Shown piece after piece: positions 5,991-38,006 of a stretch of DNA of 64,000 nt (position 1 is its first letter; each line of letters starts with the position of its first letter). Below the pieces are notes generated by a model. The model saw only the letters and a program-made list of their open reading frames with translations, did not search any database and was not told the DNA's origin. Source of the DNA: Bacteroidales bacterium. Lineage in GTDB: Bacteria; Bacteroidota; Bacteroidia; Bacteroidales; UBA932. The stretch spans positions 62,001 through 126,000 of the forward strand of contig JAKSJP010000001.1 of the NCBI GenBank assembly GCA_024398105.1, written 5' to 3'. The position numbers and the translations under genes are program-made.

Positions 5991-6109
5991 CGAGCGCGGC
6001 TGTGGGCACCCTGAACCCTCGCTACGCTCGTCCCTCCCAGCTTCGCTGGGCCCCTCCCGCTTACGTGGCCGCGGGTGGCCACGGGTTCAGGGCACCCACA
6101 GCCCGCTCG
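5991..6109 (+). repeat. Inverted-arm intergenic element A (GC-rich core family 1)
   Basis: Arms 5991-6018 and 6083-6109 are complementary over about 27 bases with one bulge and two central mismatches (CTGTGGG..CCCTGAACCC against GGGTTCAGGG..CCCACAG). The enclosed ~64-base core holds a small hairpin CCCAGC-TTCG-CTGGG, then CCCCTCCC, then TGGCC..GGCCA. The core recurs at 6162, 26426 and 37904, but the arms do not. The first arm begins 4 bases after the hisF stop, so the element may act as a 3' hairpin or attenuator. Confidence 0.75.
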
Positions 6110-6161
6110 CACAAGCAGCCTGACACGCTCGCTCATACGACGAGAGACATATTTTATCTGG

Positions 6162-6284
6162 TATGTTTCTATATAATACCCCAGACCCATGGCCGCCCTC
6201 GGCCGTGCCAGAGGGAGGGGCCCGCGCCGAAGGCGTGGGAAGGGTGAGCGAAGCGAAGGTCTGGGCGTAATATATAGAAACATA
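6162..6284 (-). repeat. Inverted-arm intergenic element B (core family 1, reverse orientation)
   Basis: Arms 6162-6187 (TATGTTTCTATATA then CCCAGACC) and 6258-6284 (GGTCTGGG then TATATAGAAACATA) pair over about 26 bases with one bulge and one mismatch. The AT-rich arms have nothing in common with those of element A. Read on the minus strand, the core matches the family-1 core (TTCGCTTCGCTC, CCCTTCCCA, GGGCCCCTCCC, GGCCG..CGGCC). Two core copies in opposite orientation thus sit side by side between hisF and hisI. The right arm ends 16 bases before the hisI start codon. Confidence 0.72.
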
Positions 6285-6300
6285 ACATTAACAGAATAAG

Positions 6301-6900
6301 ATGGATTTCAAGGAATTTAATCTGGAGAAGACAGGCGACGGCCTGCTTCCAGCAATCATACAGGACGCAAGGACCAACAAGGTCCTGATGCTCGGCTATA
6401 TGAACGAAGAGGCTTTCAACAAGACAGTCGAGACCGGCAAGGTCACATTCTGGTCACGCAGCCGCAACGAGCTCTGGACAAAGGGAGAGACCAGCGGACA
6501 CTTCCTCAACATGGTCGAGATGTATAAGGATTGCGACAGCGACACCCTTCTCATCAAGGCTATTCCTATCGGCCCGACCTGCCATAGAGGTACCACCTCA
6601 TGCTTTGACACTCCTGAATCAGAGGGATTCCTCGGAAAGCTCCAGGAAGTCATCCAGCAGAGGCACCAGGAGATGCCGGAAGGTTCCTACACCACCAAGC
6701 TCTTCATCAAGGGAGTAAAGGCCATCTCGAAGAAATTCGGTGAGGAAACCACCGAAGCCATCATCGAGGCAGTCGACGGCAACCGCGACCGCTTCATCTA
6801 CGAAGCATCCGACATGCTCTACCACTTCCTCGTTCTCCTCGAGAACCAGGGCGTGACTCTAGCTGACCTTGAGAAAGAGCTGATGCTCAGACATTCATAA
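6301..6900 (+). CDS. hisI: Bifunctional phosphoribosyl-AMP cyclohydrolase / phosphoribosyl-ATP pyrophosphatase
   Basis: HisIE fusion for steps two and three of histidine synthesis. Residues 1-110 are the PRA-CH domain (MLGYMNEEAF, VTFWSRSRNELWTKGETSG, metal ligands in DCDSDTLL and the cysteine segments GPTCHRG and TSCFD). Residues ~115-199 are the MazG-like PRA-PH domain (GEETTEAIIEA, ASDMLYHFLVLL). 199 residues, normal for the fusion. It is the last his gene and is separated from hisF by elements A and B. Whether it is read from the operon promoter or its own is unclear; I see no convincing TAnnTTTG box right upstream. Confidence 0.96.
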   Translation: MDFKEFNLEKTGDGLLPAIIQDARTNKVLMLGYMNEEAFNKTVETGKVTFWSRSRNELWTKGETSGHFLNMVEMYKDCDSDTLLIKAIPIGPTCHRGTTSCFDTPESEGFLGKLQEVIQQRHQEMPEGSYTTKLFIKGVKAISKKFGEETTEAIIEAVDGNRDRFIYEASDMLYHFLVLLENQGVTLADLEKELMLRHS

Positions 6901-6938
6901 AATCGGCATTCACAAGTACTTGATCTACAATGTTTTAA

Positions 6939-6976
6939 CAGAAAAGCCTTCGGTCAAAACGCCGAAGGCTTTTCTG
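6939..6976 (+). terminator. Terminator of the his operon
   Basis: Perfect 15-bp stem CAGAAAAGCCTTCGG / CCGAAGGCTTTTCTG with an 8-base loop, 38 bases after the hisI stop. There is no long T tract after it, but the A/T-rich stem base (AGAAAA/TTTTCT) allows use in either direction. The following ~100 bases to the aldo/keto reductase stop hold nothing further that I can recognise. Confidence 0.75.
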
Positions 6977-7079
6977 CTATACTACTATGTATCAAATAAT
7001 TACAGCCGCGGAACACAAAAAACTAGCGGGAATACGGCCGGCCGGCGACGATTGTTGCTATACGCTTCATATTCTTCTT

Positions 7080-7904
7080 TTACCAGGTGAAATTCTCAGG
7101 ATCATTCGCCTCGCTTGAGCGGAGGTTCCTGTTGAGCGAGCTTATACTCTTCATATCTTCTTCCGAAAGCTCGAAGGCAGCGACATCAAGATTCTCCTGG
7201 AGATGACGCAGCCTTGCCCTAGGGATGACGATCAGGCCCCTCTGGACGCACCAGCGAAGCAGTATCTGTGACGCGGTCTTACCATATTTCGTCGCCAGGG
7301 ACTGGAGAAGCGGATCGCCGACTATGTCCATGTTACCCTGACCGAAGGTTCCCCAGGCCTGGACGGCCAGACCTATCGATCTGTCGTAGGCAACGTTTTC
7401 CTCCTGGGCATGGTATGGGTGGATCTCGATCTGGTTGAGGACCGGACGTATCTTCGCGAACTTGTAAAGGTCCTCAAGATGGTGAGGATTGAAGTTGCTT
7501 GTACCGAGGACGCGTACCTTGCCTTCTGCGACGAAGTCCTCAAGGATACGCCATGTCTTCTCAAGATGGTCCATGACCGGCCAATGGATGAGTATCATGT
7601 CGACATAGTCCACACCTAACTTGCGAAGGCTTAGCTCGAGGGACTCCCTGATCTCTTCTGGACTCCTGCGCATCATCGCAGGGATCACCTTGGTCGTGAT
7701 GAACACTTCCTCGCGGGGTACTCTGCTCTGGGCGATGCCTTTGCCGACTTCCTCTTCATTCTCATACCACTGTGCGGTATCGACGAGCCTGAAGCCCAGT
7801 TCAAGCGCAGCCTTTACATTCTGAGTCGCCTCCTCACCTCTCAGAGTCCATGTACCGACGCCGATCTGAGGTATAGATATATTGTCTGTAAGATTGATTT
7901 TCAT
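7080..7904 (-). CDS. Aldo/keto reductase
   Basis: NADPH-dependent oxidoreductase of the AKR superfamily, 274 residues. The catalytic tetrad is visible: Asp and Tyr in FRLVDTAQWYENEEEVG, Lys in FITTKV, His in ILIHWPV. The barrel also holds LGTSNFN, VLNQIEIHPY and a C-terminal cofactor segment VIPRARLRHLQENL, where many homologues read IPKS. The substrate cannot be deduced. It lies 36 bases downstream of glsB on the same strand and is probably the last gene of the glsA-glsB transcript, though nothing links it to lipid synthesis. Confidence 0.9.
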   Translation of the reverse strand: MKINLTDNISIPQIGVGTWTLRGEEATQNVKAALELGFRLVDTAQWYENEEEVGKGIAQSRVPREEVFITTKVIPAMMRRSPEEIRESLELSLRKLGVDYVDMILIHWPVMDHLEKTWRILEDFVAEGKVRVLGTSNFNPHHLEDLYKFAKIRPVLNQIEIHPYHAQEENVAYDRSIGLAVQAWGTFGQGNMDIVGDPLLQSLATKYGKTASQILLRWCVQRGLIVIPRARLRHLQENLDVAAFELSEEDMKSISSLNRNLRSSEANDPENFTW

Positions 7905-7940
7905 GATATTGTCTCGCTGATATAGTTAATTTGCGGACGG

Positions 7941-9026
7941 CTACAGGAACTCGATGTCAGGGGAAGAATCCAGCTGCTTCTTCGATCTGAGAAGGAACTT
8001 CTTGAACAGCCTCATGCGGCGCTGTTCCCTGTTGTGTCTGATTCTCTCCTCGAATCCTGGAGCAAGGCTTGGGAAACGGGTCCTGATCTTAGCGAAATGG
8101 CTGTTCTCGAAGGACTCGATATGGCGGGCCTTCTTGTCTTCGTAGATTTCGTCGAAGCAGATCATGATGGCGGTCTCGATCGCTCCAGCAAGCTCGTCAT
8201 TGGTCGAAGTTCCGCACATCTTCATGGTAGATGAAGTATTGATGTAGCTGTTGACAAGCGGTGGGATATGCGTTCCGAGACGATGTACGGCATCCTTGAG
8301 GCATCTGTAGTCCTGCTTGACATCTTCCTTCGCAAGTATGAGGTCCATAAGTTTCTCATTGCTCTCCGGCATCATCGGATGGTATGGGCGCACAAGCTCG
8401 TCCTTGTCCCTGAAATGCTTCCAGAGGAAATGCATGATCAGGTCGCGGGCGGTAAGATCATATGACGGATAGATAGTCATCTTTCCGAAGAAATACATGA
8501 TGTTCGGATGGCTGAGGATGACTGAAGCGATTCCGTCCCAGAGGTTGTCCATGGCGAAGATAGCCTTGGCTCCAGCCTTGGAGCTCTGGTACTCAGGAGT
8601 CACGAACGACCTTCCAAGCTCCATTGTATGAGGAAGATAGTTCTCGATGAAATCATCCGAGAAATGGTACAGGTGCGATGAGGTGAGGTTAGGCTGACCG
8701 TCTGACTTGATGGTCACGTCCGTACCAAGTATGAATCTATAGCCACCCACTATGGCCTGGGCGTCAGGATCCCAGACGATGAGCTGCTGATATGGTTTTT
8801 CCATGGTATCGAACTCGTCGAGGTCCATGGCCTTGCCAGAACTTGCGCCGGCTTCCCTGTACGCGATTTCCCTGAGGCGGCCGATCTCCTTCACCACATT
8901 CGGTGAATCATGCCATGTGACGACATAGAGTTCATTCCCACCCTTGTTGGTGTCGATGAGTTTCTTCTCAGGGGTCAGTTCCGCCTTGATCAGATCGAGG
9001 CTGATTGGATCAATGATCTTTTCCAT
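7941..9026 (-). CDS. glsB: Glycine-lipid N-acyltransferase (GNAT, hemolysin-like)
   Basis: Belongs to the OlsB/GlsB family that transfers a 3-hydroxyacyl chain from ACP to an amino group. In Bacteroides, GlsB makes N-acyl glycine, the first step of glycine lipids. 361 residues from ATG 9026 (MEKIIDPISLDLIKAEL). An ATG at 9047 inside glsA adds seven residues; I prefer 9026 because the family as I recall it begins MEKII, and it starts 7 bases after the glsA stop. Visible: WHDSPNVVKEIGRLREIAYR, LDEFDTMEKPYQQLIVWDP, VGGYRFI, MELGRSFVTPEYQ, LWDGIA. The pairing with glsA mirrors Bacteroides thetaiotaomicron. Confidence 0.85.
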   Translation of the reverse strand: MEKIIDPISLDLIKAELTPEKKLIDTNKGGNELYVVTWHDSPNVVKEIGRLREIAYREAGASSGKAMDLDEFDTMEKPYQQLIVWDPDAQAIVGGYRFILGTDVTIKSDGQPNLTSSHLYHFSDDFIENYLPHTMELGRSFVTPEYQSSKAGAKAIFAMDNLWDGIASVILSHPNIMYFFGKMTIYPSYDLTARDLIMHFLWKHFRDKDELVRPYHPMMPESNEKLMDLILAKEDVKQDYRCLKDAVHRLGTHIPPLVNSYINTSSTMKMCGTSTNDELAGAIETAIMICFDEIYEDKKARHIESFENSHFAKIRTRFPSLAPGFEERIRHNREQRRMRLFKKFLLRSKKQLDSSPDIEFL

Positions 9027-9033
9027 ATAATCT

Positions 9034-9849
9034 TTACTGCATGTCATATACGATTTCCCTCACATGCTGTGCCCACTCAAGCGGAGTCCTTGATGAGTCG
9101 AAATATGACGGAGGGATCGGTTTTCCGAATATTACCTTGTACCTGCTGTGCTGCGACCTGTAGAGCTCGTCCGGAAGGAACATCATAGCGATGTTGAACT
9201 TGATTCCCAGCTTCTTGGTGAGTGCATCGATACGGTAGAAACGCTTTGAGTTCTGTCCTATGAAGTGGACAGGGACTATCCATCGGCCGGAATCGACGCT
9301 CATCTTGACGAATGACTTGTTCCATGCAACGTCCTGGATCTTTCCATCGATCTTCCTGGAGCACTTGCCCGCAGGGAAGATCAGCAGGTTGTTCGGAGAA
9401 GCATACATCTCCTTCATCATGGCAGGAAGATTCCTGGACTGGCCTCCGAGCTTGTTCACTCCGACGGACACGGACGCTATCGACTTGATGTTCATCAGGA
9501 AATCATTGACAAGAAGTCTGATGTTGCCGTCACAACGGCCTCCTATGAGGCCGATGAGGGCGATTCCGTCAATACCGCCGAGAGGATGGTTAGGGGCGAA
9601 GGTGCAGAGATGGTCCTTCATCACTTCGAGATTCTCTAGTCCTTCGACGTCTATCTGGACATCAAGATACTTCAGACATTCCGTACAGAATTCCACTCCA
9701 TCATATCCCTGTGTAAGGAAAGCGTTGATGAAGTCCTGGTGAATGAATTTCTTTCCCCAGTTCAGAATGAACTGCGGGACCTTACGTTTTGGCATCTTTG
9801 ACCTGACAATCCTGTCAAGGTCGATGGCGAGAGACTCGTCGTATGGCAT
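9034..9849 (-). CDS. glsA: Glycine-lipid O-acyltransferase (PlsC-like)
   Basis: Lysophospholipid-acyltransferase-like protein, 271 residues, expected to add the second acyl chain to the hydroxyl of N-acyl glycine at the inner membrane. The acyltransferase active-site block reads FAPNHPLGGIDGIALIG, the His/Asp variant typical of Bacteroidetes GlsA. The second block is LIFPAGKCSR and the third WIVPVHFIGQNS. It overlaps or abuts glsB and is transcribed first. It is divergent from the acyl-CoA synthetase at 9974 with 124 bases between, so both regulators of fatty-acyl use may act there. Confidence 0.85.
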   Translation of the reverse strand: MPYDESLAIDLDRIVRSKMPKRKVPQFILNWGKKFIHQDFINAFLTQGYDGVEFCTECLKYLDVQIDVEGLENLEVMKDHLCTFAPNHPLGGIDGIALIGLIGGRCDGNIRLLVNDFLMNIKSIASVSVGVNKLGGQSRNLPAMMKEMYASPNNLLIFPAGKCSRKIDGKIQDVAWNKSFVKMSVDSGRWIVPVHFIGQNSKRFYRIDALTKKLGIKFNIAMMFLPDELYRSQHSRYKVIFGKPIPPSYFDSSRTPLEWAQHVREIVYDMQ

Positions 9850-9934
9850 CAGGTTTTGAGTACTATTTTTCCGAAAAATTGTCCGAAAAGTTTTTTAAAG
9901 ATATGAAAATTATACGTTGTTTCCAAAAACGGAG

Positions 9935-9942
9935 TAATTTTG
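9935..9942 (+). promoter_or_regulatory. Candidate -7 box for the acyl-CoA synthetase at 9974
   Basis: TAATTTTG fits the Bacteroidetes -7 consensus TAnnTTTG and lies 31 bases before the start codon. No good TTTG box is found 19-21 bases upstream (the best nearby is TTG at 9917), so only the -7 element is claimed. Confidence 0.45.
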
Positions 9943-9973
9943 CACCACAAGAAATACTATTTATACTACTATC

Positions 9974-11599
9974 ATGACATCTTTCATAAAGAAATTCGAA
10001 AAGACTTCGAAAGAGTGCTGGGGAATGCCGGCAATCAACAATTACGGCGACACCCCACTCACATATTGCGACCTCACTCAGGAAATAGCCAAGCTCCAGC
10101 AGACATGGGAAGCTGCTGGTCTCGTAAAGGGTGACCGTGTTGCAATCAACGCTGCAAGCTCGACGAACTGGGGTATCGTATTCTTCGCTGCTGTCACAGG
10201 CGGATACGTCCCTTGCCAGATGTTCAACGGATTCCTTCCTGCTGACGCCATGGGTCTCGTAAACCACTCAGGCAGCAAGATCCTCTATACAGAAGAAAGA
10301 CTCTACAAGCAGATGAGCCTCGACGCGATGCCTGAGGTGATCGCCATCTTCGACACGAAATCAGGTAATCTTCTCGAGTCAAAGGGCGACTTCGCACAGA
10401 CACGTGAGAAGGTACTTTCAGAGTTCAAGGCCATCTCTGCCGAGGAGCTCCAGTATCAGGACAGACCAATGGACGACCTCTGTACAATCATGTACACATC
10501 CGGTTCTACAGGAAACCCTAAGGGTGTGATGCTCACAGTCGAGAACTACACCGCAAACGTAGATGTGATCCCTGAGATCTTCCCTTACAGAAGAGGTGAC
10601 AACTATCTCAGCATCCTTCCGTATGCCCACATCTTCGGTCTCACATTCGACCTCATCACCCCGCTCTGCCTCGGTATGCATGTCGTTCCTCTCTGTCTCC
10701 CTCCTATCCCTAAGTACCTCTCAGCAGGTCTCTGCGAGACAAAGCCTCGCGCCGTGATGCTCGTACCGCTCGTACTTACAAAGATGAAGGAAGAGACTAT
10801 CGGTGAGTTCGTAAGAAGCAAGACAGGTCAGGCAAAGCTCGCCAACCCATCAGAGAACAAGCCTTTCCTCAAGGCTCTCAAGACGATCTTCATGGAGGCT
10901 CTCGGTGGAAACGTCGAACTTATCGTCACCGGTGGCGCAGCTATCCCTGAGGAGCTCGAGGACCTTCTCATCAATATCAATATTCCTCTCGTAACTGGTT
11001 ACGGAATGACCGAGTGCGCACCAACCATGACCCTCGGCCGTCCTGGCAACTACAGGAAGAAGGAATGTGGTATCCCTGTAAGGACCATCAACCTCAAGAT
11101 CAATTCTGCAGATCCTGAAAACATCCCTGGAGAGGTTCTCGTAAGCGGTCCTGTAGTATTCAAGGGCTACTACAAGAACCCTGAGGCAGACAAGCTCGCA
11201 TTCACCGAGGACGGTTGGTTCCGCACAGGTGACATGGGTATCCAGGACAGCGAAGGCCATCTCTTCCTCGTAGGACGCTGCAAGAGCATGCTTCTCAGCA
11301 GCAACGGACAGAACGTATTCCCAGAGGAGATCGAGGTCATACTCAACCAGCTCCCATATGTCGCAGAATCACTCATCGTCCAGAGAGGCAGCCAGTTCAC
11401 AGCACTCATCGTGCCTAACGCTGACCTCGCAGGAAATGATGGCATAGACGCCGCATCGCTCGAAAGCATCATGAAGTCGAACATCGAAGCTCTCAACAAG
11501 AAGATTCCTGCATATTCACAGGTTTCAGGCTTCGAGCTCAGGACAGAAGCTTTCGCGAAGACTCCTAAGGGCAGCATCAAGCGCTTCCTTTACTCATAA
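9974..11599 (+). CDS. Long-chain acyl-CoA synthetase (AMP-binding)
   Basis: ANL-superfamily ligase activating a fatty acid through an acyl-AMP to a thioester. 541 residues. Motifs in order: P-loop TIMYTSGSTGNPKGVML (~A3), LSILPYAHIFGL, VTGGAAIPEEL, VTGYGMTECAP (A5), GWFRTGDMG (A7), GRCKSMLLSSNGQNVFPEEIE and the catalytic lysine segment TPKGSIKRFL at the C-terminus. The substrate chain length is not readable. A paralogue sits at 27512-29146. It is divergent from glsA and is closed by a strong terminator at 11621. Confidence 0.92.
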   Translation: MTSFIKKFEKTSKECWGMPAINNYGDTPLTYCDLTQEIAKLQQTWEAAGLVKGDRVAINAASSTNWGIVFFAAVTGGYVPCQMFNGFLPADAMGLVNHSGSKILYTEERLYKQMSLDAMPEVIAIFDTKSGNLLESKGDFAQTREKVLSEFKAISAEELQYQDRPMDDLCTIMYTSGSTGNPKGVMLTVENYTANVDVIPEIFPYRRGDNYLSILPYAHIFGLTFDLITPLCLGMHVVPLCLPPIPKYLSAGLCETKPRAVMLVPLVLTKMKEETIGEFVRSKTGQAKLANPSENKPFLKALKTIFMEALGGNVELIVTGGAAIPEELEDLLININIPLVTGYGMTECAPTMTLGRPGNYRKKECGIPVRTINLKINSADPENIPGEVLVSGPVVFKGYYKNPEADKLAFTEDGWFRTGDMGIQDSEGHLFLVGRCKSMLLSSNGQNVFPEEIEVILNQLPYVAESLIVQRGSQFTALIVPNADLAGNDGIDAASLESIMKSNIEALNKKIPAYSQVSGFELRTEAFAKTPKGSIKRFLYS

Positions 11600-11620
11600 T
11601 TCTTCGGAAATGACGGATTC

Positions 11621-11655
11621 AAGGCCGGCAGGTAGTTTCACCTGTCGGCCTTTTT
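11621..11655 (+). terminator. Terminator of acyl-CoA synthetase
   Basis: Stem AAGGCCGGCAGGT / ACCTGTCGGCCTT (13 bp with one G-U) around a 6-base loop, followed by TTT, 22 bases after the stop. The -33 box of the ettA promoter falls in its loop. Confidence 0.85.
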
Positions 11656-11666
11656 CATTACCTTTG
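11636..11666 (+). promoter_or_regulatory. Candidate ettA promoter
   Basis: TTTC at 11636-11639, 19 bases, TACCTTTG at 11659-11666; the -7 box is a full match to TAnnTTTG. It lies inside and just after the preceding terminator hairpin, 28 bases before the ettA start. Confidence 0.55.
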
Positions 11667-11694
11667 CACAAATCACAAAAACAAAGGAATTCAA

Positions 11695-13371
11695 ATGGCA
11701 GACGAAAAGATCATCTTCTCGATGAACGGTGTGGGCAAGGTCCTTCCCAACAACAATAGAGTTATTCTCAAGGACATCTACCTTTCTTTCTTCTACGGTG
11801 CAAAGATCGGCATCATCGGTCTCAACGGCTCAGGTAAGTCGACCTTGATGAAGATCATAGCCGGAGTAGAGACCTCCTACAAGGGAGAGGTCGTATGGGC
11901 TCCAGGCTATTCTGTAGGCTACCTCGAGCAGGAGCCTCAGATGGATCCGGACAAGACCGTCCTGGAGGTTGTCCAGGAGGGCGTTCAGGAGGTGATGGAC
12001 GTACTCAACGAATACAACGAGATCTCGGCCAAATTCATGGAGCCTATGGACGACGACGAGATGAACCGCCTTATCATGCGCCAGGGCGAGCTCGCCGAAA
12101 AGATCGAGCAGGTCGGCGGATGGGAGATCGATTCAAAGCTTGAAAGAGCGATGGACGCTCTCCAGTGTCCTCCAGGCGATGCATTGGTCGCGAATCTCTC
12201 AGGTGGTGAAAGACGTAGGGTCGCTCTCTGCCGACTTCTCCTCAGGCAGCCTGACGTACTCCTTCTCGACGAGCCTACCAACCACCTCGACACCGAGAGT
12301 ATCCAGTGGCTGGAGGCACATCTCAAGCAGTACAAGGGCACAGTCATCGCCGTGACCCACGACCGCTACTTCCTCGACAACGTCGCAGGATGGATACTTG
12401 AGCTTGACAGAGGCGAAGGTATTCCATGGAAGGGCAACTACAGCTCATGGCTCGACCAGAAGACAAAGCGTCTCGCACAGGAAGAGAAGACCGAGAGCAA
12501 GCGTCGCAAGACCCTCGAGAGAGAGCTTGAATGGGTACGCATGGCACCGAAGGCCCGCCAGGCAAAGCAGAAGGCGCGTCTGGGAGCTTACGAGAAGCTC
12601 GCTGCTTCCGATGCCAAGGAGAAAGAGGCTAAGCTCGAGATATATATCCCTAACGGTCCACACCTTGGAAACAAGGTCATCGAGTTCCACAATGTCAGCA
12701 AGGCCTACGGCGACAAGCTTCTCTTCGAGAACCTTGACTTCGTCCTTCCTCCAGCCGGAATCGTCGGTGTCATCGGTCCTAACGGAGCCGGCAAGACTAC
12801 CCTTTTCCGCCTGATCATGGGAATCGAGAAGCCTGACACAGGCGAGATCTCGATCGGAGAGACCGTGAAGATCGCCTACGTCGACCAGCAGCATAAGAGT
12901 ATCGACCCTGAGCTTTCTGTCTACGAGACCATCGCAGGCAACTCAGAGTGGGTAAGGCTCGGAAACAAGGACATCAACGCCCGCGCATGGGTATCCCGTT
13001 TCAACTTCAGCGGCGCAGACCAGGAGAAGCTCTGCGGAGTGCTTTCCGGAGGTGAGAGGAACCGTCTCCACCTTGCGCTTACCCTCAAGGACGAAGGTAA
13101 CGTACTTCTCCTCGACGAGCCTACAAACGACGTTGACGTAAACACCATCCGTGCACTCGAGGAAGGTCTCGAAGGTTTCGCAGGATGTGCAGTGGTAGTC
13201 AGCCATGACCGTTGGTTTCTCGACCGTATCGCGACCCATATACTTGCCTTCGAAGGCGATTCTCAGGTCGTATTCTTCGAGGGTAACTACCAGGAGTACG
13301 AGGAGAACAAGAAGATGCGTCTCGGCAATGTAGAGCCTAAGCCGTTCAAGTACAAGAAGCTGATGGAATAA
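11695..13371 (+). CDS. ettA: Energy-dependent translational throttle protein EttA (ABC-F)
   Basis: Cytoplasmic ABC-F ATPase without membrane domains that binds the ribosomal E site and gates the first elongation steps according to ATP/ADP. 558 residues, the EttA size. First nucleotide-binding domain: GLNGSGKST, LSGGERRRVAL, LLDEPTNHLD. The linker/arm region about residues 245-320 is charged (KRLAQEEKTESKRRKTLERE). Second domain: GPNGAGKTT, LSGGERNRLHLALTL, LLDEPTNDVD, VVSHDRWFLD. The C-terminus MRLGNVEPKPFKYKKL is characteristic of EttA. The DUF3667 gene follows after only 5 bases. Confidence 0.94.
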   Translation: MADEKIIFSMNGVGKVLPNNNRVILKDIYLSFFYGAKIGIIGLNGSGKSTLMKIIAGVETSYKGEVVWAPGYSVGYLEQEPQMDPDKTVLEVVQEGVQEVMDVLNEYNEISAKFMEPMDDDEMNRLIMRQGELAEKIEQVGGWEIDSKLERAMDALQCPPGDALVANLSGGERRRVALCRLLLRQPDVLLLDEPTNHLDTESIQWLEAHLKQYKGTVIAVTHDRYFLDNVAGWILELDRGEGIPWKGNYSSWLDQKTKRLAQEEKTESKRRKTLERELEWVRMAPKARQAKQKARLGAYEKLAASDAKEKEAKLEIYIPNGPHLGNKVIEFHNVSKAYGDKLLFENLDFVLPPAGIVGVIGPNGAGKTTLFRLIMGIEKPDTGEISIGETVKIAYVDQQHKSIDPELSVYETIAGNSEWVRLGNKDINARAWVSRFNFSGADQEKLCGVLSGGERNRLHLALTLKDEGNVLLLDEPTNDVDVNTIRALEEGLEGFAGCAVVVSHDRWFLDRIATHILAFEGDSQVVFFEGNYQEYEENKKMRLGNVEPKPFKYKKLME

Positions 13372-13376
13372 CATCC

Positions 13377-15113: not shown

Positions 15114-15133
15114 TGATTTTCTTTTTAGGACTA

Positions 15134-15164
15134 CAAATATACAACTTTCCCCTTGATAATAAAA
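15134..15164 (-). promoter_or_regulatory. Candidate promoter of the divergent AraC gene
   Basis: On the minus strand TATATTTG (15134-15141 read in reverse) is a full -7 match, with TTTT 19 bases upstream in place of TTTG. Confidence 0.5.
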
Positions 15165-15170
15165 TTGTCC

Positions 15171-26425: not shown

Positions 26426-26534
26426 TATAGTCTAGTCTGAGCCTTCCGCGCTGCGCGCTCCATCCAGTCACTCCCTTCGGTCGTGCCAGCCGCTCACGAG
26501 GCCGCGGCCGGCCACGGGCTCAGACCAGACTATA
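26426..26534 (+). repeat. Inverted-arm intergenic element C (core family 1)
   Basis: Arms 26426-26443 (TATAGTCTAGTCTGAGCC) and 26517-26534 pair over 18 bases with one mismatch. The core carries CGCTGCGCGCTCC, CTTCGG and ACGAGGCCGCGGCCGGCCA, related to the core of element A, most clearly in GGCCGCGG..GGCCACGGG. It lies between convergent araB and the HAD gene. The remaining ~55 bases to the HAD stop hold nothing recognisable. Confidence 0.65.
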
Positions 26535-29146: not shown

Positions 29147-29155
29147 TAGTGACAA

Positions 29156-29188
29156 TTTGGCAGAATGCCAGTTAAGGAACACATTTTG
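29156..29188 (+). promoter_or_regulatory. Candidate htpG promoter
   Basis: TTTG at 29156-29159, 21 bases, ACATTTTG at 29181-29188 (one mismatch to TAnnTTTG). The -7 box runs into the left arm of the following hairpin. Confidence 0.4.
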
Positions 29189-29230
29189 AGTTACCCTTCT
29201 GTACATCAGAAAAGGTAACTCAAAATTTTT
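29184..29230 (+). terminator. Long hairpin between acyl-CoA synthetase and htpG
   Basis: Left arm 29184-29201 (TTTTGAGTTACC then CTTCTG) pairs with 29207-29225 over ~18 bp with one bulge; loop TACAT; then TTTTT. It lies 38 bases after the synthetase stop and 5 bases before the htpG start, so it is either the terminator of the former or a 5' hairpin of htpG. Confidence 0.7.
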
Positions 29231-29235
29231 ATAAT

Positions 29236-31239: not shown

Positions 31240-31262
31240 TCCTCACCAACAACAGACATATG

Positions 31263-31296
31263 AGAGTCGGTTCAGGAATGAACCGGCTCTTTTTTT
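31263..31296 (+). terminator. Terminator of htpG
   Basis: Stem GAGTCGGTTCA-GGAA-TGAACCGGCTC (11 bp, one G-U) followed by a seven-T tract. Confidence 0.9.
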
Positions 31297-31318
31297 GTTC
31301 CTGATACTTTCTGGACTA

Positions 31319-31437
31319 CCCAGGTCAGGCATGTCAAGGTCAGGGCGACCTCAGCCGCAGCAGACAAGTTATGAGCGAAGCGAATGACGCAGGATGCGAG
31401 AATGGACAGAGCCCGTTCTTGACATGCCTGACCTGGG
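31319..31437 (+). repeat. Inverted-arm intergenic element E
   Basis: Arms 31319-31338 (CCCAGGTCAGGCATGTCAAG) and 31418-31437 are perfect 20-bp inverted repeats around a 79-base core. The core contains TGAGCGAAGCGAATGACGC, partly shared with the element at 38020 (TGAGC..GGAATGACGC). Inner pairing GGTCAGGGCGACC is also visible. It lies between the terminators of convergent htpG and ompA. Confidence 0.7.
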
Positions 31438-31461
31438 ATTGTCAGTATAAGTACAGTGTAA

Positions 31462-31494
31462 CAAAAAATCCCGGCTGGCGAACCAGTCGGGATT
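31462..31494 (-). terminator. Terminator of ompA-like gene
   Basis: On the minus strand, stem AATCCCGACTGG-TTCG-CCAGCCGGGATT followed by TTTT, 21 bases after the stop. Confidence 0.88.
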
Positions 31495-31515
31495 CTGTAT
31501 TGAAGTAAGGATAGA

Positions 31516-32688
31516 TTACTTAACGTTTGTGACAACGCGACGTGCATCCTTAGTTCCGTCGATACCACCGAGAACGATAGTCTCGATCTTGTTCTCAGCA
31601 ACACCCTTCTTAACGAGGTATGCCTTGACAGTGTTAGCACGCTTCTCAGCAAGCTTCTGGTTTGTAGCAGCTGAACCTGTGCCCTTGTCTGCTGAACCGG
31701 TAACGGTAAGTGTCTGGTCGTCGCCAAGACGAGCAGCAACTGCGTCAGCATAGAAGTCGAGGTGCATCTTCTCACGATCTGAGAGAGTAGCTGAACCGAG
31801 GTCGAAGAATGTGTAGCAACCTGACTCGACAGCGTCGTTCTGTACATATACAGTATCAGGAGCCTGGTTCTTAAGACGCTCGATCTCATCCTTGAGTGCA
31901 GCGTTCTCCTTCTCGAGAGCAGCTACGCGATCCTTAAGTGCGTTGTACTGGTCAACTGTGAAAGGAACAGGAACAACGACTGGAGTAACTGATGAGTGAC
32001 GGTCGAAGTTAGACTTGCCAAGGTTGAAGATGATACCTGCTGTGAGTGAAGGAAGAAGTGCGTGTGCACCATCCTCTACGACCTGGAAATCTCTGTCAGC
32101 GATAGCAGCGAAAGAAGCATCGAGGTAGAGGTCTACATGCTTGCCAAGACGGAAGTCATTGAGGAGACCGAAACCATAACCGAGCTCCTGGCCCATGTTG
32201 TAGTCTTTCTGTGAGAAGAAGAGGATACCAGCATGTGCATAAGGAATGAGATCCCAGAAACGTGTCTCCTTGTATCCGCCAAGAGCGTTAGAGATGTTCC
32301 ACATGAAATCTGAGTGGATGTAATGCTGATAGAAGTTGTCGTCAACCTTGAGAGACTCTGAAGTTGACTCACCACCGTTGAGGTTAAGGTTGTTCTGGAG
32401 ACCCTTGTAGCCGATTCTAGCACCGACTGAAGGGGTGAACCACTTACCAACGAAACCGTCTACTGCGATACCGCCGAAACCGAAGTCAGAATACCTGTTA
32501 CCGAATGTGTTGGCACCAGCACCGAGACCGATGAACCAGTTGTCAGCACCACGGTTTGTTTCGTAAGCACCACGAACGACCTTGCCGTTCTCATCGCGGT
32601 TTCCGTTCTCCTGAGCGTTTGCGCTCATAGAGAAGCTGAGGAGACTTGCTGCAGCAAGTACACCTGCGAAAATTTTGATTGCTTTCAT
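31516..32688 (-). CDS. OmpA-family outer membrane protein
   Basis: 390 residues. Signal peptide with cleavage after SANA (~26). Residues ~30-235 are a predicted beta-barrel with aromatic-rich alternating strands (DNWFIGLGAGANTFG, AGIIFNLGKSNF). A proline/valine linker (VVVPVPFTV) leads to a heptad coiled coil (~250-275, LKDRVAALEKENAALKDEIE). Residues ~285-390 are an OmpA C-terminal peptidoglycan-binding domain (FFDLGSATLSDREKMHL, VTGSADKGTGSAATNQKLAEKRANTV). It anchors the outer membrane to the wall. A consensus promoter at 32749 and strong terminator fit an abundant porin-like protein. Confidence 0.92.
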   Translation of the reverse strand: MKAIKIFAGVLAAASLLSFSMSANAQENGNRDENGKVVRGAYETNRGADNWFIGLGAGANTFGNRYSDFGFGGIAVDGFVGKWFTPSVGARIGYKGLQNNLNLNGGESTSESLKVDDNFYQHYIHSDFMWNISNALGGYKETRFWDLIPYAHAGILFFSQKDYNMGQELGYGFGLLNDFRLGKHVDLYLDASFAAIADRDFQVVEDGAHALLPSLTAGIIFNLGKSNFDRHSSVTPVVVPVPFTVDQYNALKDRVAALEKENAALKDEIERLKNQAPDTVYVQNDAVESGCYTFFDLGSATLSDREKMHLDFYADAVAARLGDDQTLTVTGSADKGTGSAATNQKLAEKRANTVKAYLVKKGVAENKIETIVLGGIDGTKDARRVVTNVK

Positions 32689-32748
32689 TGTTTATAAATA
32701 ATGATTTAAAATTATTCTCCTTGATATGCCTATGGACATACTTAGAAA

Positions 32749-32779
32749 CAAATTTAGGCCATTTTTACAACAAAACAAA
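32749..32779 (-). promoter_or_regulatory. Promoter of ompA-like gene
   Basis: On the minus strand TTTG (32776-32779), 19 bases, TAAATTTG (32749-32756): a full match to both boxes. Predicted start near 32743 gives a leader of ~55 bases. Confidence 0.7.
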
Positions 32780-32782
32780 ATC

Positions 32783-32816
32783 TTTGACGAAAAATCAGGT
32801 CATAATGCTATCTTTG
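32783..32816 (+). promoter_or_regulatory. Promoter of uvrB
   Basis: TTTG at 32783-32786, 22 bases, TATCTTTG at 32809-32816. It supports the uvrB start at 32843 and lies back to back with the ompA promoter. Confidence 0.6.
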
Positions 32817-32842
32817 CAAGTGCCCTACAGGCAATTCCAAGC

Positions 32843-35005
32843 ATGAAATTCAGACTAGTAGCTCCATATTCGCCATCGGGAGACCAACCGGGTGCGATCC
32901 GCGACATAAGCTCAGCCCTCGAGCAAGGTGTTGATTCCGTGACACTTCTTGGTGTGACAGGATCAGGAAAAACCTTCACCATGGCCAACATCATCCAGAA
33001 ACTGCAGAGGCCTGCGCTCATCCTGAGCCACAACAAGACCCTTGCAGCACAGCTATACGGCGAATTCAAGGCTTTCTTTCCCGAAAATGCCGTCGAATAC
33101 TTCGTATCATACTATGACTACTATCAGCCGGAGGCATATATTCCTACGACTGACACATATATCGAGAAGGACCTCAGCATCAACGAACAGGTCGAGAAAC
33201 TCAGGCTGAGCGCCGCTTCCGCCCTCATGTCAGGACGAAGGGACGTAATCGTGATATCCAGCGTCTCATGCCTGTACGGCATAGGCAACCCTGAGGACTT
33301 CCATAGCCAGACGGTAGTGGTACGCAAAGGCGAGCAGCGCAGCCTCACCAGGCTCCTCTACCACCTTGTAGACGCACTCTACAGCCGTACCGAGGTGGAT
33401 TTCAAGAGAGGAACGTTCAGAGTCAGAGGCGACACCGTGGATGTATTCCTCGGCGGTGCGGACGAGGCCGTCAGGATTGAATTCTTCGGAGACGAAGTCG
33501 AGGACATCTCGCTCATCGATCCTATCACAGGTGCCAGGCTGGAGAGCCTGACGGAGGTCCCGATCTACCCTGCGAACAACTTCGTGACGACAAAGGAGCG
33601 CGGAATCAAGGCTGTCAGCCAGATCCAGGACGACCTTGTCGAGCAGATGGCATATTTCGAGAGCATCGACAAGGTGGCGGAGGCAAAACGCCTCAAGCAG
33701 AGAGTCGAATACGACCTTGAGATGATCAAGGAGATGGGCTATTGTCCCGGCATCGAGAACTATTCGAGATATCTGGACGGCAGAAGTCCAGGCCAGAGGC
33801 CATTCTGCCTGATAGACTACTTCCCGGACGATTTCATCACCTTCATCGACGAGAGCCATGTCACAATCCCTCAGATCAGAGCAATGTACGGCGGCGACCA
33901 CTCTAGGAAGTCAGTCCTTATCGAGTACGGATTCAGACTGCCAGCGGCTGCGGACAACAGACCTCTCAAGTTCGACGAGTTCGAGGAAGTCACCAAGCAG
34001 ACGGTATTTGTCAGCGCGACACCGGCCGACTACGAGCTCGAACGTTCGGAAGGACTTGTGGTAGAGCAGGTTGTAAGGCCTACAGGACTTCTCGACCCTC
34101 CTATCGAGGTCAGACCTGTCAAGAACCAGGTGGACGACCTTCTCGAGGAGATCCAGAAGCGCTCGGCACTTGACGAAAGGACTCTCGTCACTACCCTCAC
34201 GAAACGTATGGCCGAGGAGCTCAACTCCTATCTTGACAGGATGGGAGTCAGGGTAAGGTACATCCATTCCGACATCGACACGACAGAGAGGGTCGAGATC
34301 ATCGAAGACTTCAAGAAAGGCCTCTTCGACGTGCTGGTCGGAGTCAATCTCCTCAGGGAAGGACTTGACATCCCGTCTGTCTCGCTGGTTGCGATTCTCG
34401 ACGCGGACAAGGAAGGATTCCTCCGTTCAGGAAGAGCTTTGACACAGACTGCAGGACGTGCCGCGAGAAACATCCACGGGCTTGTGATCATGTATGCGGA
34501 CACCATCACCCAGTCCATGCAGGAGACCATCTACGAGACCGACAGAAGAAGGTCCAAGCAGATGGAATACAATAAATTGCACAACATCACACCTAAGCAG
34601 GTCGGCGTAAAGGAAAACCCTCTTATCGGCGAGCTTGTCGGTTCCGGGAAGGGCCGCGTGACCGCTGCGAATTCATACGACGATCCGATCTACATCCCTA
34701 GCCCGAGCGAACTTGGAAAGGGCACTGTAAGCGTAGGTCTCGGCATCGATTCCAGAAGGGAGACCAACTCGGCATTCGTCGACGGATACATCAAGGCCGA
34801 CCTCGCCGCTGTCCTTCAGGACCCTGTCATCAGGTCCATGTCAAGAGAGCAGGTCGAGAAGATGGCAGAGGAGGCGAAGCGAAAGATGCAGCAGGCAGCA
34901 GCCGAGCTGGAATTCAACGCAGCCGCCAAGTACCGCGACGAGATGTGGGCACTCAACGAATACCTGCGTGTCTGGCAGGAAAAGGAAAACAAGAAGAGGA
35001 AATAG
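32843..35005 (+). CDS. uvrB: UvrABC system protein B
   Basis: Helicase-like damage-verification subunit of nucleotide excision repair. 720 residues from ATG 32843 (MKFRLVAPYSPSGDQP). An in-frame ATG at 32726 lies upstream of the promoter boxes and is rejected. Motifs: Walker A LLGVTGSGKTF (~36-46), beta-hairpin YYDYYQPEAYIPTTDTYIEKD, DESHVT Walker B, VSATPADYEL, and helicase motifs V-VI NLLREGLDIP and QTAGRAARN. The C-terminal UVR motif (~VEKMAEEAKRKMQQAAAELEF) binds UvrC. Convergent with the phosphatase gene, 3 bases apart. Confidence 0.97.
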   Translation: MKFRLVAPYSPSGDQPGAIRDISSALEQGVDSVTLLGVTGSGKTFTMANIIQKLQRPALILSHNKTLAAQLYGEFKAFFPENAVEYFVSYYDYYQPEAYIPTTDTYIEKDLSINEQVEKLRLSAASALMSGRRDVIVISSVSCLYGIGNPEDFHSQTVVVRKGEQRSLTRLLYHLVDALYSRTEVDFKRGTFRVRGDTVDVFLGGADEAVRIEFFGDEVEDISLIDPITGARLESLTEVPIYPANNFVTTKERGIKAVSQIQDDLVEQMAYFESIDKVAEAKRLKQRVEYDLEMIKEMGYCPGIENYSRYLDGRSPGQRPFCLIDYFPDDFITFIDESHVTIPQIRAMYGGDHSRKSVLIEYGFRLPAAADNRPLKFDEFEEVTKQTVFVSATPADYELERSEGLVVEQVVRPTGLLDPPIEVRPVKNQVDDLLEEIQKRSALDERTLVTTLTKRMAEELNSYLDRMGVRVRYIHSDIDTTERVEIIEDFKKGLFDVLVGVNLLREGLDIPSVSLVAILDADKEGFLRSGRALTQTAGRAARNIHGLVIMYADTITQSMQETIYETDRRRSKQMEYNKLHNITPKQVGVKENPLIGELVGSGKGRVTAANSYDDPIYIPSPSELGKGTVSVGLGIDSRRETNSAFVDGYIKADLAAVLQDPVIRSMSREQVEKMAEEAKRKMQQAAAELEFNAAAKYRDEMWALNEYLRVWQEKENKKRK

Positions 35006-35008
35006 GGC

Positions 35009-35683
35009 TTACGGCCTTCCGATAGCCTTTTCGACTATTGCGTCGATATCCTCCGGAGCCGTCGCGAGATAGGTCGCCGCCGTCAGGCTTTCTGCAGGGC
35101 GGAATCCCCATGAGACCGCGATCGACGGGATTCCGGCATTTGCCGCAGTCTTGATGTCAGTCGACGAATCCCCCACCATTATGACATCGCCAAGGTCCAT
35201 GGTACCTGCCTCCGAAGCATGTACCATGATCCTGTTGACTACCTCAGGGGACGGCTTCAGAGGCGCGTCGGGACCGTTTCCGAGGACTTCCACGAAGTCG
35301 GTCGAAGGGAAAAGCTTCGATACGAGCACTTCCGCTCCGCTCTGGAACTTGTTGGAGGCGACGGCAAGATGGTAGCCGGCGGCAGACAGGCGGTCGACAA
35401 GTTCAGGGATTCCAGGATATGGACGCGTATGGACGTCGATGTGGGCGGAATAGTACTCGACGAAATCGGCGAGGACAGCGTCAAGCAGTCTCTCATCGTC
35501 TCTCAGGCCTTCCGGCATGGCAGTCTTGACAAGATTCCTTACTCCGTGGCCGACCATCATGTAGAATTCGTCAATCGCGTGCTCTGGGAAGTTCCTGAGA
35601 GCAAGTGCATGGTTAACAGCCACACCAAGGTCTTCGATGCTGTTGATCAAAGTACCGTCCAGATCAAAAATTATCAGTTTCAT
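35009..35683 (-). CDS. HAD hydrolase, phosphoglycolate phosphatase-like
   Basis: 224 residues from ATG 35683 (MKLIIFDLDGTLINS); an upstream ATG at 35698 adds five residues before the first strand. HAD subfamily IA with an alpha-helical cap: motif I FDLDGTL, motif II VASNKF, lysine in LKPSPEVV, motif IV IMVGDSSTDIKTAANAG. The layout fits Gph, which removes 2-phosphoglycolate formed during DNA 3'-end repair. Its place beside uvrB would agree, but related phosphatases cannot be excluded. Divergent from relA with 37 bases between start codons. Confidence 0.82.
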   Translation of the reverse strand: MKLIIFDLDGTLINSIEDLGVAVNHALALRNFPEHAIDEFYMMVGHGVRNLVKTAMPEGLRDDERLLDAVLADFVEYYSAHIDVHTRPYPGIPELVDRLSAAGYHLAVASNKFQSGAEVLVSKLFPSTDFVEVLGNGPDAPLKPSPEVVNRIMVHASEAGTMDLGDVIMVGDSSTDIKTAANAGIPSIAVSWGFRPAESLTAATYLATAPEDIDAIVEKAIGRP

Positions 35684-35720
35684 ATTCAAATATACCAAGA
35701 AATCTTATTATATTGCGGAT

Positions 35721-37868
35721 ATGGACATCATTGAAGAAAGATTCCCGCATTACAGCGAGGCCGGGAAAGACCTCATCAGGGCAGCATACAGTATCGCAGA
35801 GCAGGCGTTGAAGGATGATCTCAGGTATGACGGTTCGCCGTTCCTGAACCACCCTATGGGCGTAGCCATGATCGTGTCTGACGAGATCGGTCTCCAGGCC
35901 GAGTGCGTGACCGCGGTCTTTCTCCATGAGTCGCTGAGGACGCATCCGGACCTCGACACTTCTTCGTGGAAGTTCTCCGACGAGATCATGAAGATGGTGG
36001 ACGGTCTCAACAAGATCGCTACGATCAAGCCGAAAGACACCAAGCTCGAGGCCGAGAACTACAAGAAACTGATCGTACAGTATTCCACCGACCCTCGCGT
36101 GACTGTCCTCAAGATCGCGGACAGGCTTGAGGTGATGCGCCATCTTGAGATGTTCCCGGGACAGTCAAGGGAAAGGAAGATTCTCGAGACGCTTATGCTC
36201 TACATCCCGCTTGCGCACCAGCTAGGCCTTTACAACATCAAAGGGGAGATGGAGAACATCTACCTTGGCTTCGCCGAGCCTGAGCAGTACAGAAGCATCA
36301 CCAACAAGCTCAAGGCTACCGAGAAAGACAGGGAAAGGCTCATGGAAGAATTCATCGAGCCTCTCAAGAAGGACCTTGACAACGAGGGCATCCACTATAA
36401 GCTGAAGATAAGGACCAAGTCTGCATATTCGATCTTCAAGAAGATGAAGGTGCAGAAAGTGCCTTTCGAAGGCGTGTATGACGTCTTCGCCATCCGTTTC
36501 ATAATTGACTGCGAGCCTGAGAGCAGTATCGAGAAGGATCTCTGCTGGAAGGTCTATTCATATGTGACCAAGGAGTACGAAGCTGATACTAAGAGGCTCA
36601 GGGACTGGATCACCAATCCTAAGCCTAACGGCTATGAATCCCTCCATATCACTGTCAAGAACAGGCAGAACGCCTATGTGGAGGTCCAGATCAGGACCAA
36701 GAGAATGGACGCGGAGGCCGAGAACGGCAATGCGGCACACTGGTCATACAAGGGTGTGAAGCACGAGGAGACTCTCGACAGATGGCTGACTTCAGTCCGC
36801 TACAACCTCGAGCACCCGCTTTCCGTAAATCCGGAAGACGTCCCTCAGCCACCTGACAAGGAGATATTCGTGTTCACACCTAGCAGTGAGCTCAGGATCC
36901 TCCCTACAGGTGCCACAGTGCTTGATTTCGCATTCAATATCCATAGCAACATCGGTATGAGATGTACCGGTGGCAAGATCAACGGCAAGGTTGCTTCAAT
37001 CAAGGAGAAGCTGAAGACTGGAGACGTCGTAGAGATCCTGACCAGCAAGAACCAGAAGCCTACGGCTGACTGGCTTAACCATGTCGTGTCTTCAAAGGCC
37101 AGGAACAAGATACGCCAGTCTCTCCATGACGCGGAATTCAAGAAGGCCGCTGAAGGAAAGGAAATCCTTGAGAGAAGGCTGAAGAACTGGAAGCTCGAAC
37201 TTCCGGACGAGATGATGGTGGAGCTTATGAAGAAGCTTCACTACACCACGATCTATGCGTTCCATGCCGCTATCGCAGAGGAAGTCGTCGATGTCAATAC
37301 TGTCAAGACCTTCATCCAGGAGCATGACGCGATGCTCGCTGAAGCCGCAGCAAGGGCAGCCGAGGCTGAGGCTGCAAAGGTCAAGCACAGCATCAAGTCC
37401 GGTGACAGCGGGGATGATATCCTTGTCATCAACGCAAAGAATCTGAAAGGTCTGGACTATAAGATGGCGAAGTGCTGCAATCCTGTATTCGGCGACGATG
37501 TGTTCGGTTTCGTGACCAGGGACGAGGGTATCAAGATCCACAGGATCTCATGTCCTAACGCGGCACGTCTGATCGAGATGTATCCATATCGTATCCAGAA
37601 GGTGAAATGGACCGAGACTCCTAGCTCGGGTTCTTTCCAGGTGAGCCTGAGGATCGTCGCTGAGATGGAGGATTCGGTGATCAACCATATCATGGATGTG
37701 ATCAATCAGTTCAGGGCTTCGCTGAGGTCATTCAATGTCAATGAGAATCAGAGGAACGGAACTTATGACATCACGATGAAGGTTTCTGTCGCCTCGAATA
37801 TGGAGCTGGACAAGGTCGTTTCTCAGATCAAGGTCATAAGGCACGTCCTCAAGGTCGGACGTATGTAG
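35721..37868 (+). CDS. relA: RelA/SpoT-family (p)ppGpp synthetase with degenerate hydrolase domain
   Basis: 715 residues from ATG 35721 (MDIIEERFPHYSEAG); an upstream ATG at 35637 overlaps the divergent gene. Domains: HD (~20-160), synthetase (~210-360: TKSAYSIFKKMK, YDVFAIRFI, RLRDWITNPKPNGYESLHI, VEVQIRTKRM), TGS (~380-440, EIFVFTPSSELRILPTGATV), zinc/RIS segment (KMAKCCNPVFGDDVFGFV) and C-terminal ACT. In the HD domain His44 and Asp134 remain, but the HD pair reads His69-Glu70 (FLHESLR). The hydrolase is therefore probably weak or lost, as I recall for the RelA-type member of Bacteroides. It would make (p)ppGpp on stalled ribosomes. Confidence 0.9.
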   Translation: MDIIEERFPHYSEAGKDLIRAAYSIAEQALKDDLRYDGSPFLNHPMGVAMIVSDEIGLQAECVTAVFLHESLRTHPDLDTSSWKFSDEIMKMVDGLNKIATIKPKDTKLEAENYKKLIVQYSTDPRVTVLKIADRLEVMRHLEMFPGQSRERKILETLMLYIPLAHQLGLYNIKGEMENIYLGFAEPEQYRSITNKLKATEKDRERLMEEFIEPLKKDLDNEGIHYKLKIRTKSAYSIFKKMKVQKVPFEGVYDVFAIRFIIDCEPESSIEKDLCWKVYSYVTKEYEADTKRLRDWITNPKPNGYESLHITVKNRQNAYVEVQIRTKRMDAEAENGNAAHWSYKGVKHEETLDRWLTSVRYNLEHPLSVNPEDVPQPPDKEIFVFTPSSELRILPTGATVLDFAFNIHSNIGMRCTGGKINGKVASIKEKLKTGDVVEILTSKNQKPTADWLNHVVSSKARNKIRQSLHDAEFKKAAEGKEILERRLKNWKLELPDEMMVELMKKLHYTTIYAFHAAIAEEVVDVNTVKTFIQEHDAMLAEAAARAAEAEAAKVKHSIKSGDSGDDILVINAKNLKGLDYKMAKCCNPVFGDDVFGFVTRDEGIKIHRISCPNAARLIEMYPYRIQKVKWTETPSSGSFQVSLRIVAEMEDSVINHIMDVINQFRASLRSFNVNENQRNGTYDITMKVSVASNMELDKVVSQIKVIRHVLKVGRM

Positions 37869-37903
37869 CTTTCCTCAGCTCCAGGCCTGTCTCACGCAAT
37901 TGC

Positions 37904-38006
37904 CAGATAGTGGTCCATACGGGCCTCCAAACCCTCCCAGCTTACGCTGGGCCCCTCCCACTCCTTGCGTGGTCGCAAAGGTCGGCCATGTACGGACCAC
38001 TACCTG
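37904..38006 (+). repeat. Inverted-arm intergenic element D (core family 1)
   Basis: Arms 37904-37920 (CAGATAGTGGTCCATAC) and 37990-38006 pair over 17 bases with two mismatches. The core has CCCTCCCAGC-TTAC-GCTGGG-CCCCTCCC followed by GCGTGGTCGC and GGTCGGCCA, very close to element A; the hairpin loop is TTAC against TTCG there. It lies in the 371-base gap between convergent relA and mltG, followed by a second structured element at 38020. Confidence 0.72.

Follow-up and report, generated by a model that had tools for sequence, protein, structure and literature searches.

We found that the four palindromes of the 64-kb window (the whole stretch of DNA analysed) belong to a short mobile palindrome, apparently non-coding and common within a single Bacteroidales genus. 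The core arrives at new sites together with a variable length of the inner arm, and it can flip between its arms. Our preferred reading, to which we assign a probability of about one half, is that the stem of this element is partly carried along and partly written by hairpin-templated copying.

The palindromes reported in the initial annotation are present at all four places. In copy 1 (forward strand), 19 of the 21 bases of the left arm (5998–6018) pair with the right arm (6083–6103; 0.90), and the core between them (6019–6082) consists of CCCTCCCA-hairpin-GGGCCCCTCCC followed by GGCCGCGGGTGGCCA. The pairing, mismatches included, extends into the end of hisF (His_biosynth, PF00977): the last three sense codons of the gene (GTCAGGCTG, 5975–5983, forward strand) form the outermost left pairing region, and the right arm ends with their inverted copy (CAGCCTGAC, 6116–6124, forward strand), which lies outermost in the right pairing region. 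Copy 2 lies in the opposite orientation (reverse strand), with one arm, AT-rich in its outer part, at 6162–6187, the core at 6188–6257 and the other arm at 6258–6284 (left-right identity 0.93); here CCTTCCCA replaces CCCTCCCA. The paired arms of copy 3 (forward strand, 26426–26443 and 26517–26534, left-right identity 0.94) enclose a diverged core (26444–26516), which matches core L018 at 71% identity across 83 nt (E = 2.7e-7), and those of copy 4 (forward strand, 37904–37925 and 37984–38006, left-right identity 0.83) enclose a core of a sub-family with CCTCCAAACCCTCCCAGC and GCAAAGGTC (37926–37983). The common core ascribed to all four copies thus holds in part: GGGCCCCTCCC is found in copies 1, 2, and 4, the exact CCCTCCCA in copies 1 and 4 only, and neither in copy 3, which is a diverged relative. 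When the window was searched with 113 cores (E up to 0.01), matches were obtained at these four places alone, and the only Rfam match in the window at gathering thresholds was a cobalamin riboswitch.

In the hisF–hisI spacer, 19 of the 21 relatives compared lack the element and two have elements bearing other arms; it should be noted that this comparison concerns the presence or absence of the element. One genome (G112) was considered as a close relative of the window on account of one gene at 87% and rejected, since the next gene differs by eye. Some of the Bacteroidales relatives compared are metagenome assemblies.

The core 11-mer occurs 26 times in the genome of the window versus once for the reversed control. 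Within the genus, 32 of the 37 genomes sampled have the motif, several low-count genomes being no higher than their reversed control (e.g., G002, G009, G022, and G033); at the level of the order, it was found in 4 of 24 genomes, with one or two matches each. The hosts are gut and rumen Bacteroidales, and the insert is about 90–190 nt long. Several copies lie inside genes or between converging genes, and the element is sometimes in-frame within housekeeping genes; at all nine genic loci chosen, an open frame (one of six frames) runs through it.

The arms pair inside each locus and differ across loci, as had been claimed, with scores in the window of 12–21 within copies and at most 6.0 between them. 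For 74 copies from six genomes, a set that includes copies cut by contig ends and partial or chance matches (L118, L120, L121, L126, and the contig-end palindrome L129), the median left-right score was 19.25. The control of 600 mismatched arm pairs had a median of 8.0, a 95th percentile of 13.5, and a maximum of 127.5, the last because related copies and L129 stayed in. Among the 43 Bacteroidales copies of a second set, 38 had arms above the 95th percentile of the control, compared with 2 of 40 copies of alphaproteobacterial repeats whose core, CCCTCCCA-hairpin-GGGCCCCTCCCTCTCCC, is nearly the same (three loci of this group are titled only Proteobacteria).

Where cores were at least 80% alike (161 pairs), arm identity between loci was mostly 0.4–0.5, rising to 0.56–0.69 at the four innermost positions. 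The arms are not wholly unique, since the inner arm CTCCTCCGGAGACC is common to L017, L018, L019, and L022, whose outer parts differ. Identical arms elsewhere in the genome had been named in the initial annotation as the mark of an ordinary palindromic transposon relic. We searched 41 arms out of the 74 scored copies, cut to 36 nt, against G000, G016, and G258, and a near-full second copy was found for two of them, L100 (91% over 33 nt) and L112 (89% over 38 nt); for most there was no second full copy in these three genomes, and inner parts recurred for some. The copies do not share the same terminal repeats, as those of a classical inverted-repeat transposon or MITE would. Flanking direct repeats of 6 bp, as expected from target duplication, were found at 2 of 113 copies and at 2 of 113 controls. 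Direct repeats of 5–6 bp were seen by eye at L131 and L136.

Comparison with element-free orthologs indicates where the arms came from. Among 13 sites, five by program and one more by eye (L374) have an inverted flank copy that the empty ortholog lacks; it was not found at five, and two were unplaced. At the first six, one arm consists in its outer part of host sequence, of which the opposite arm is the inverted copy, the number of stem pairs with one partner in the host and the other in the insert being, by program, 13 for L131, 6 for L136, 7 for L111, 7 for L368, and 5 for L375. At L131, L136, and L111, the inverted flank copy is followed, by eye, by 3–9 filler bases. A further 17 pairs at L368 and 6 at L375 were scored as lying wholly in the host, although the orthologs there have no palindrome; we read these as change after insertion.

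At the five other sites, both arms arrived with the element. Every stem pair lies within the insert at L135, L097, L376, and L360, and for L140 the program gave no pairs with the left host, 7 with the right host, and 4 wholly in the host, the host bases amounting by eye to at most five. L370 (21 pairs with the right host) and L356 (23 wholly in the host) were misplaced by the program and excluded; the break point of L374 against its ortholog L401 was also misplaced. Read by eye against L401, the host arm of L374 runs in the opposite direction. Against a second ortholog (L402), all 31 pairs of L374 fall within the insert. We considered a rule by which the host arm would always be the left one and dropped it because L374 runs the opposite way and because overlaps with ORF ends are as frequent for the left arms (9 of 82) as for the right arms (9 of 70), with no bias of direction. 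L214 represents an independent insertion, and its left arm looks by eye like the empty site of G152. Roughly half of the testable sites therefore support hairpin-templated rebuilding of the arms, one of the two possibilities originally offered; at the remainder both arms were carried in, and the arms are thus partly carried and partly made on site.

Eight sites are shared between species, and at three of them the core is flipped relative to the flanks. The arms at these sites are clearly homologous between species; identities were computed over equal arm lengths. At S1 and S2, the innermost 20 nt of the arms are 0.65–0.85 identical between species (left to left and right to right) and 0.85–0.95 identical left to right within a copy, so that concerted arm change is visible there. 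It is absent at S6 and S8, where the arms are 0.95–1.00 alike between species versus 0.80–0.85 left to right and nothing has therefore homogenised them, and weak or ambiguous at S3, S4, S5, and S7. The shared sites may represent separate insertions into one site rather than one altered insertion.

The other possibility offered at the outset, that the arms are host hairpins whose loops the core entered, was refuted at the sites tested, since 19 of the 20 element-free orthologs scored at 13 filled sites were no more palindromic at the junction than the background. The exception, L401, exceeds its local 95th percentile (10.0 versus 8.5), and its companion L402 does not. Empty orthologs observed beyond these 20 include L222, L232, L223, L235, L236, and L380; four filled sites (L364, L365, L357, and L130) had no usable comparison, and at the L136 and L131 sites the element is absent from two outgroup species each. 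Variation of the arms by locus, and the fit of some to local base composition (AT-rich in L130 and L214, for example), would suit loop insertion; with 19 of the 20 orthologs below the local 95th percentile, we regard it as highly improbable.

Y1 (RAYT-like) transposase genes, which had been proposed as a search target, are present in the genome, with four Y1_Tnp matches over the cut-off in G000; the fetched Y1 loci do not carry the element. GGGCCCCTCCC was found in none of 17 Y1 loci (3.3–5.7 kb, five genomes) and CCCTCCCA alone in three, so that the element does not flank these genes as REP sequences flank RAYT genes; most of the loci are flanked by palindromes of other sequence. Eight of eight proteins tested from four genomes matched NF047646, all below its cut-off. 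Y1 matches occur in 27 of the 37 genus genomes (in G016, both are below the Pfam cut-off), and Y1 correlates with copy number (Spearman 0.43, p = 0.008, descent uncorrected). At least four copies were found in 21 of 27 genomes with Y1 versus 1 of 10 without (Fisher p = 3.2e-4, uncorrected for descent and with the four-copy cut-off set after the counts were known). G014, a genome that is 70% complete, carries 15 copies and gave no Y1 match. At the hairpin foot of 113 copies, GTAG (0 left and 1 right) and GTGG (3 and 0) were not enriched over the background (0 and 3 for each), and the difference for CGTC (11 and 4 versus 5 and 1) is unclear. Our leading guess for the mobilising enzyme is a Y1 (HUH) transposase of the RAYT type that would act on hairpins in single-stranded DNA.

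In the proposed mechanism of a partly carried and partly copied stem, insertion or later replication would pass through a hairpin or cruciform, where the growing strand would switch template and copy about 5–15 nt, sometimes more, of the facing flank. Such copying would lengthen the stem, make it locus-specific, repair it, and possibly flip the core.

The main competitor, a realistic if less probable one, is an ordinary MITE-like palindromic transposon, in which the whole hairpin is mobile and the arms differ between loci through a mutation rate above that of the core, the fold being preserved. The four loci with all pairs inside the insert, the inner arms common to some copies, the near-full recurrence of the L100 and L112 arms, and the homology of shared-site arms between species are all consistent with it; it accounts poorly for the outer pairs of L131, L136, L111, L368, and L375, which have one partner in the host sequence of the empty ortholog, for the lack of a second full copy of most of the 41 arms in the three genomes, and for flanking direct repeats that do not exceed the control. 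An invertible switch resembling phase-variable promoters, in which recombination would take place at the arms, would explain the three cores whose orientation differs between species. We consider it very unlikely, because the arms vary between loci, so that one site-specific recombinase could hardly recognise all of them, and several copies lie within genes or between converging genes.

A special form of our preferred reading places the copying in the insertion step itself: a Y1/HUH (RAYT-type) transposase would join the single-stranded element to the target by its 5' end, and the free 3' end would fold back, extend along the flank, and be sealed to the other side. The correlation of Y1 with copy number and the inverted flank copies with filler bases at three loci point in this direction; the Y1 loci without GGGCCCCTCCC, the unenriched GTAG foot, and G014, together with a correlation uncorrected for descent, speak against it, and we hold this form to be rather doubtful. 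We give equally modest credence to the conjecture that the hairpin, once inserted, uses its own 3' end as a primer to copy the target flank. Every insertion would then make its own inverted repeat, later moves would take a part of it along, and the arm would record the places visited.

No description of this palindrome family was found in the open-access literature searched. The Rickettsia palindromic elements (RPE) are palindromic repeats located between genes and, in-frame, within protein genes. The present element resembles them in its size and its intergenic and in-frame genic location and differs in its site-specific arms, the likeness being judged by description rather than by sequence. 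RAYT genes of the Bacteroidetes subclass 2.6 are described as flanked by "atypical secondary structures", further copies of which lie elsewhere in the genome (PMC6006769), and multi-copy hairpins in genomes with RAYT-like genes are a likeness to such REP/BIME systems with their RAYT (TnpA-REP). The differences are the arms, which are not conserved here, the unenriched GTAG/GTGG foot, and the Y1 loci without the element. That template switching can produce perfect hairpins has been published, the stems being made, or staying paired, with the opposite arm as the template (PMC8794818), and concerted arm change is reported inside genes for the coding palindromes of Nematomorpha mitochondria (PMC6649704). 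The consulted parts of these two sources describe no conserved dispersed core; in Bacteroidales, the process would act on a mobile element.

Taken together, if our reading is right, these genomes would hold many natural events in which long stems were created or extended at new sites, both intergenic and within housekeeping genes, and the role of template switching in hairpin creation would become testable in bacteria. The combination of the same core with different paired arms would then mark elements of this kind, and selection for RNA structure need not be invoked whenever a stem shows paired changes.

The four palindromic elements reported by the initial annotation are present in the window, with copies 1 to 4 at 5991–6109, 6162–6284 (reversed), 26426–26534 and 37904–38006. 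The common core ascribed to them stands in part: copies 1, 2 and 4 have GGGCCCCTCCC, only 1 and 4 match CCCTCCCA exactly, and copy 3 is a diverged relative. At its outer end, the right pairing region of copy 1 repeats the final codons of hisF in inverted form. Throughout the window's genome (G000, in which the window is C1:62001–126000), the core 11-mer occurs 26 times versus one occurrence of the reversed pattern used as a control. The G-rich strand of the core, GGGAGGGGCCC..GGGAGGG, has four runs of G and an intervening hairpin, an arrangement that could form a quadruplex. The window also contains a cobalamin riboswitch (Rfam RF00174) at 46790–46923.

Folding of all 26 exact-motif copies of G000 gave a long stem outside the core in all except L025, whose arms do not match, and L011, L013, L021 and L026, which run into foreign sequence at the ends of contigs C6, C9, C26 and C38. 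These four loci share the position of the core break and the foreign sequence GAGGGCACTGAAAAAGGGTAGC..., which is perhaps an insertion sequence targeting the core. The median arm pairing score for 74 copies from six genomes was 19.25, compared with 8.0 in mismatched pairs. A clean inner stem, for which we chose a threshold of at least 13 of 16 positions paired, was found in 113 of 218 copies of all fetched material, including alphaproteobacterial; without gaps, pairing in these 113 is about 0.7 at positions 17–20, outside the selected region, and has faded by position 24 or so. With gaps allowed, the quartiles of arm length are 19, 25 and 31 nt. Arm identity across loci is mostly 0.4–0.5 where the cores are at least 80% alike (161 pairs).

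The contig ends in or near the element at L129, L147 and L137–L139, and the palindrome of about 94 nt at the contig end of L129 is likely an assembly artefact. A half-lost copy in G152 (L155) retains its right arm beside another palindrome, GGCACTGTCGTTAACCC. The G016 copies L098, L101, L107 and L119, which belong to the GGTCTCGGC-arm sub-family, adjoin a GC-rich repeat roughly 1 kb long; at the G084 orthologs this repeat is absent or different.

The initial annotation had considered insertion of the core into the loop of an existing host hairpin, and had proposed searching relatives for empty sites keeping that hairpin. Close genome pairs were picked and the element flanks were then searched in partner genomes, which to judge from titles or contig numbers are metagenome assemblies (the most contiguous of those used is G016, in 8 contigs). 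Twenty element-free orthologs of 13 filled sites were scored, a small sample with uncertain intergenic alignments at 80–90% identity. In 19 of the 20 the junction was no more palindromic than random places of the same stretch, so no arm hairpin was there before the core arrived, and loop insertion is refuted for the sites tested. At L136 and L131, the element is also absent in outgroup species, which identifies both as insertions rather than losses.

The alternative proposal, that arms are rebuilt by hairpin templating, agrees with some sites and not with others. According to the program break points, stem pairs that join a base of the retained host flank to one of the insert number 13 at L131, 6 at L136, 7 at L111, 7 at L368 and 5 at L375 (plus 6 with both partners host), whereas every stem pair lies within the insert at L135, L097, L376 and L360; no placement was obtained for L370 and L356. 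By eye, L140 has at most 5 host bases, and L374 is the reverse case against L401; against L402, all L374 pairs fall within the insert. The filled gene at L368 has host codons outside the insert that could pair with the opposite side; three element-free orthologs lack this complementarity, which suggests that some of the change came after insertion.

Of the sites filled in two or three species, eight (S1–S8; others, such as L133/L144, lie outside this set) had their arms compared over the innermost 20 nt. At S1 (shikimate-kinase-like gene), identities between species are 0.75–0.80 for arms and 0.80–0.87 for cores, versus 0.90–0.95 between left and right arms within a copy; at S2 (MiaB-like gene), the values are 0.65–0.85, 0.87–0.92 and 0.85–0.95. 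S6 and S8 show the opposite, with arms 0.95–1.00 identical between species and just 0.80–0.85 left to right, and S3, S4, S5 and S7 are intermediate. Concerted arm change is thus indicated at two shared sites and is not general. Core orientation relative to the flanks is inverted between species at S2, S4 and S5. An open frame runs through the element in 9/9 chosen genic loci (gene names are our reading of translations, not a family search), as in the palindromic elements of Rickettsia, which can lie in genes and leave the frame open. For the hisF–hisI spacer of the window, 21 of 24 loci (L031–L054) met the alignment thresholds; 19 of these relatives have no element and the remaining two (L034, L035), from two other species, have elements with other arms, which suggests a favoured site.

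Counting G000, 37 genomes of the genus were sampled, of which 32 have the 11-mer and five lack it; in some of them, its matches do not exceed those of the reversed pattern. It occurs once or twice in each of 4 of 24 order-level genomes. A longer pattern matched at least 119 stretches of named genomes, 80 with titles; the titled matches listed include many rumen and gut Bacteroidales assemblies and one Candidatus Cryptobacteroides caccocaballi. The window itself presumably belongs to Cryptobacteroides. The likeness of the core between Bacteroidales and Alphaproteobacteria is striking at the sequence level, yet among the titled loci listed site-specific arms occur in 38/43 Bacteroidales copies and 2/40 of the alphaproteobacterial group. 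At the alphaproteobacterial loci L243, L257, L261, L292 and L303, an almost identical core occurs in closely spaced inverted pairs that lack site-specific arms. One Microbacterium and one Caloramator locus look armed by eye, yet score at most 12.0 (three copies, without control).

The search for a Y1 transposase, suggested by the initial annotation, gave matches in 27 of 37 genus genomes (E up to 0.001). At least four element copies are found in 21/27 genomes with a match and 1/10 without (Fisher p = 3.2e-4, Spearman 0.43), an association that we treat only as a lead, given the relatedness of the species and a cut-off set after the counts were seen. GGGCCCCTCCC was absent from all 17 Y1 loci fetched (17/17), most of which have palindromes of other sequence, by eye on the folds. 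The RAYT-like Y1 genes at L167–L183 (283–331 aa) mostly lie between their own palindromes, with clearly distinct sub-types within one genome; a survey mentions atypical structures adjoining Bacteroidetes RAYTs (PMC6006769).

In the account that we favour, the element would move as a palindrome bringing part of its stem along, and the rest would be written, on insertion or afterwards, by a template switch within a hairpin. Stem creation and repair via template switching are described in published work (PMC8794818; PMC6649704); the new part, if true, would be the coupling of template switching to a dispersed mobile core.
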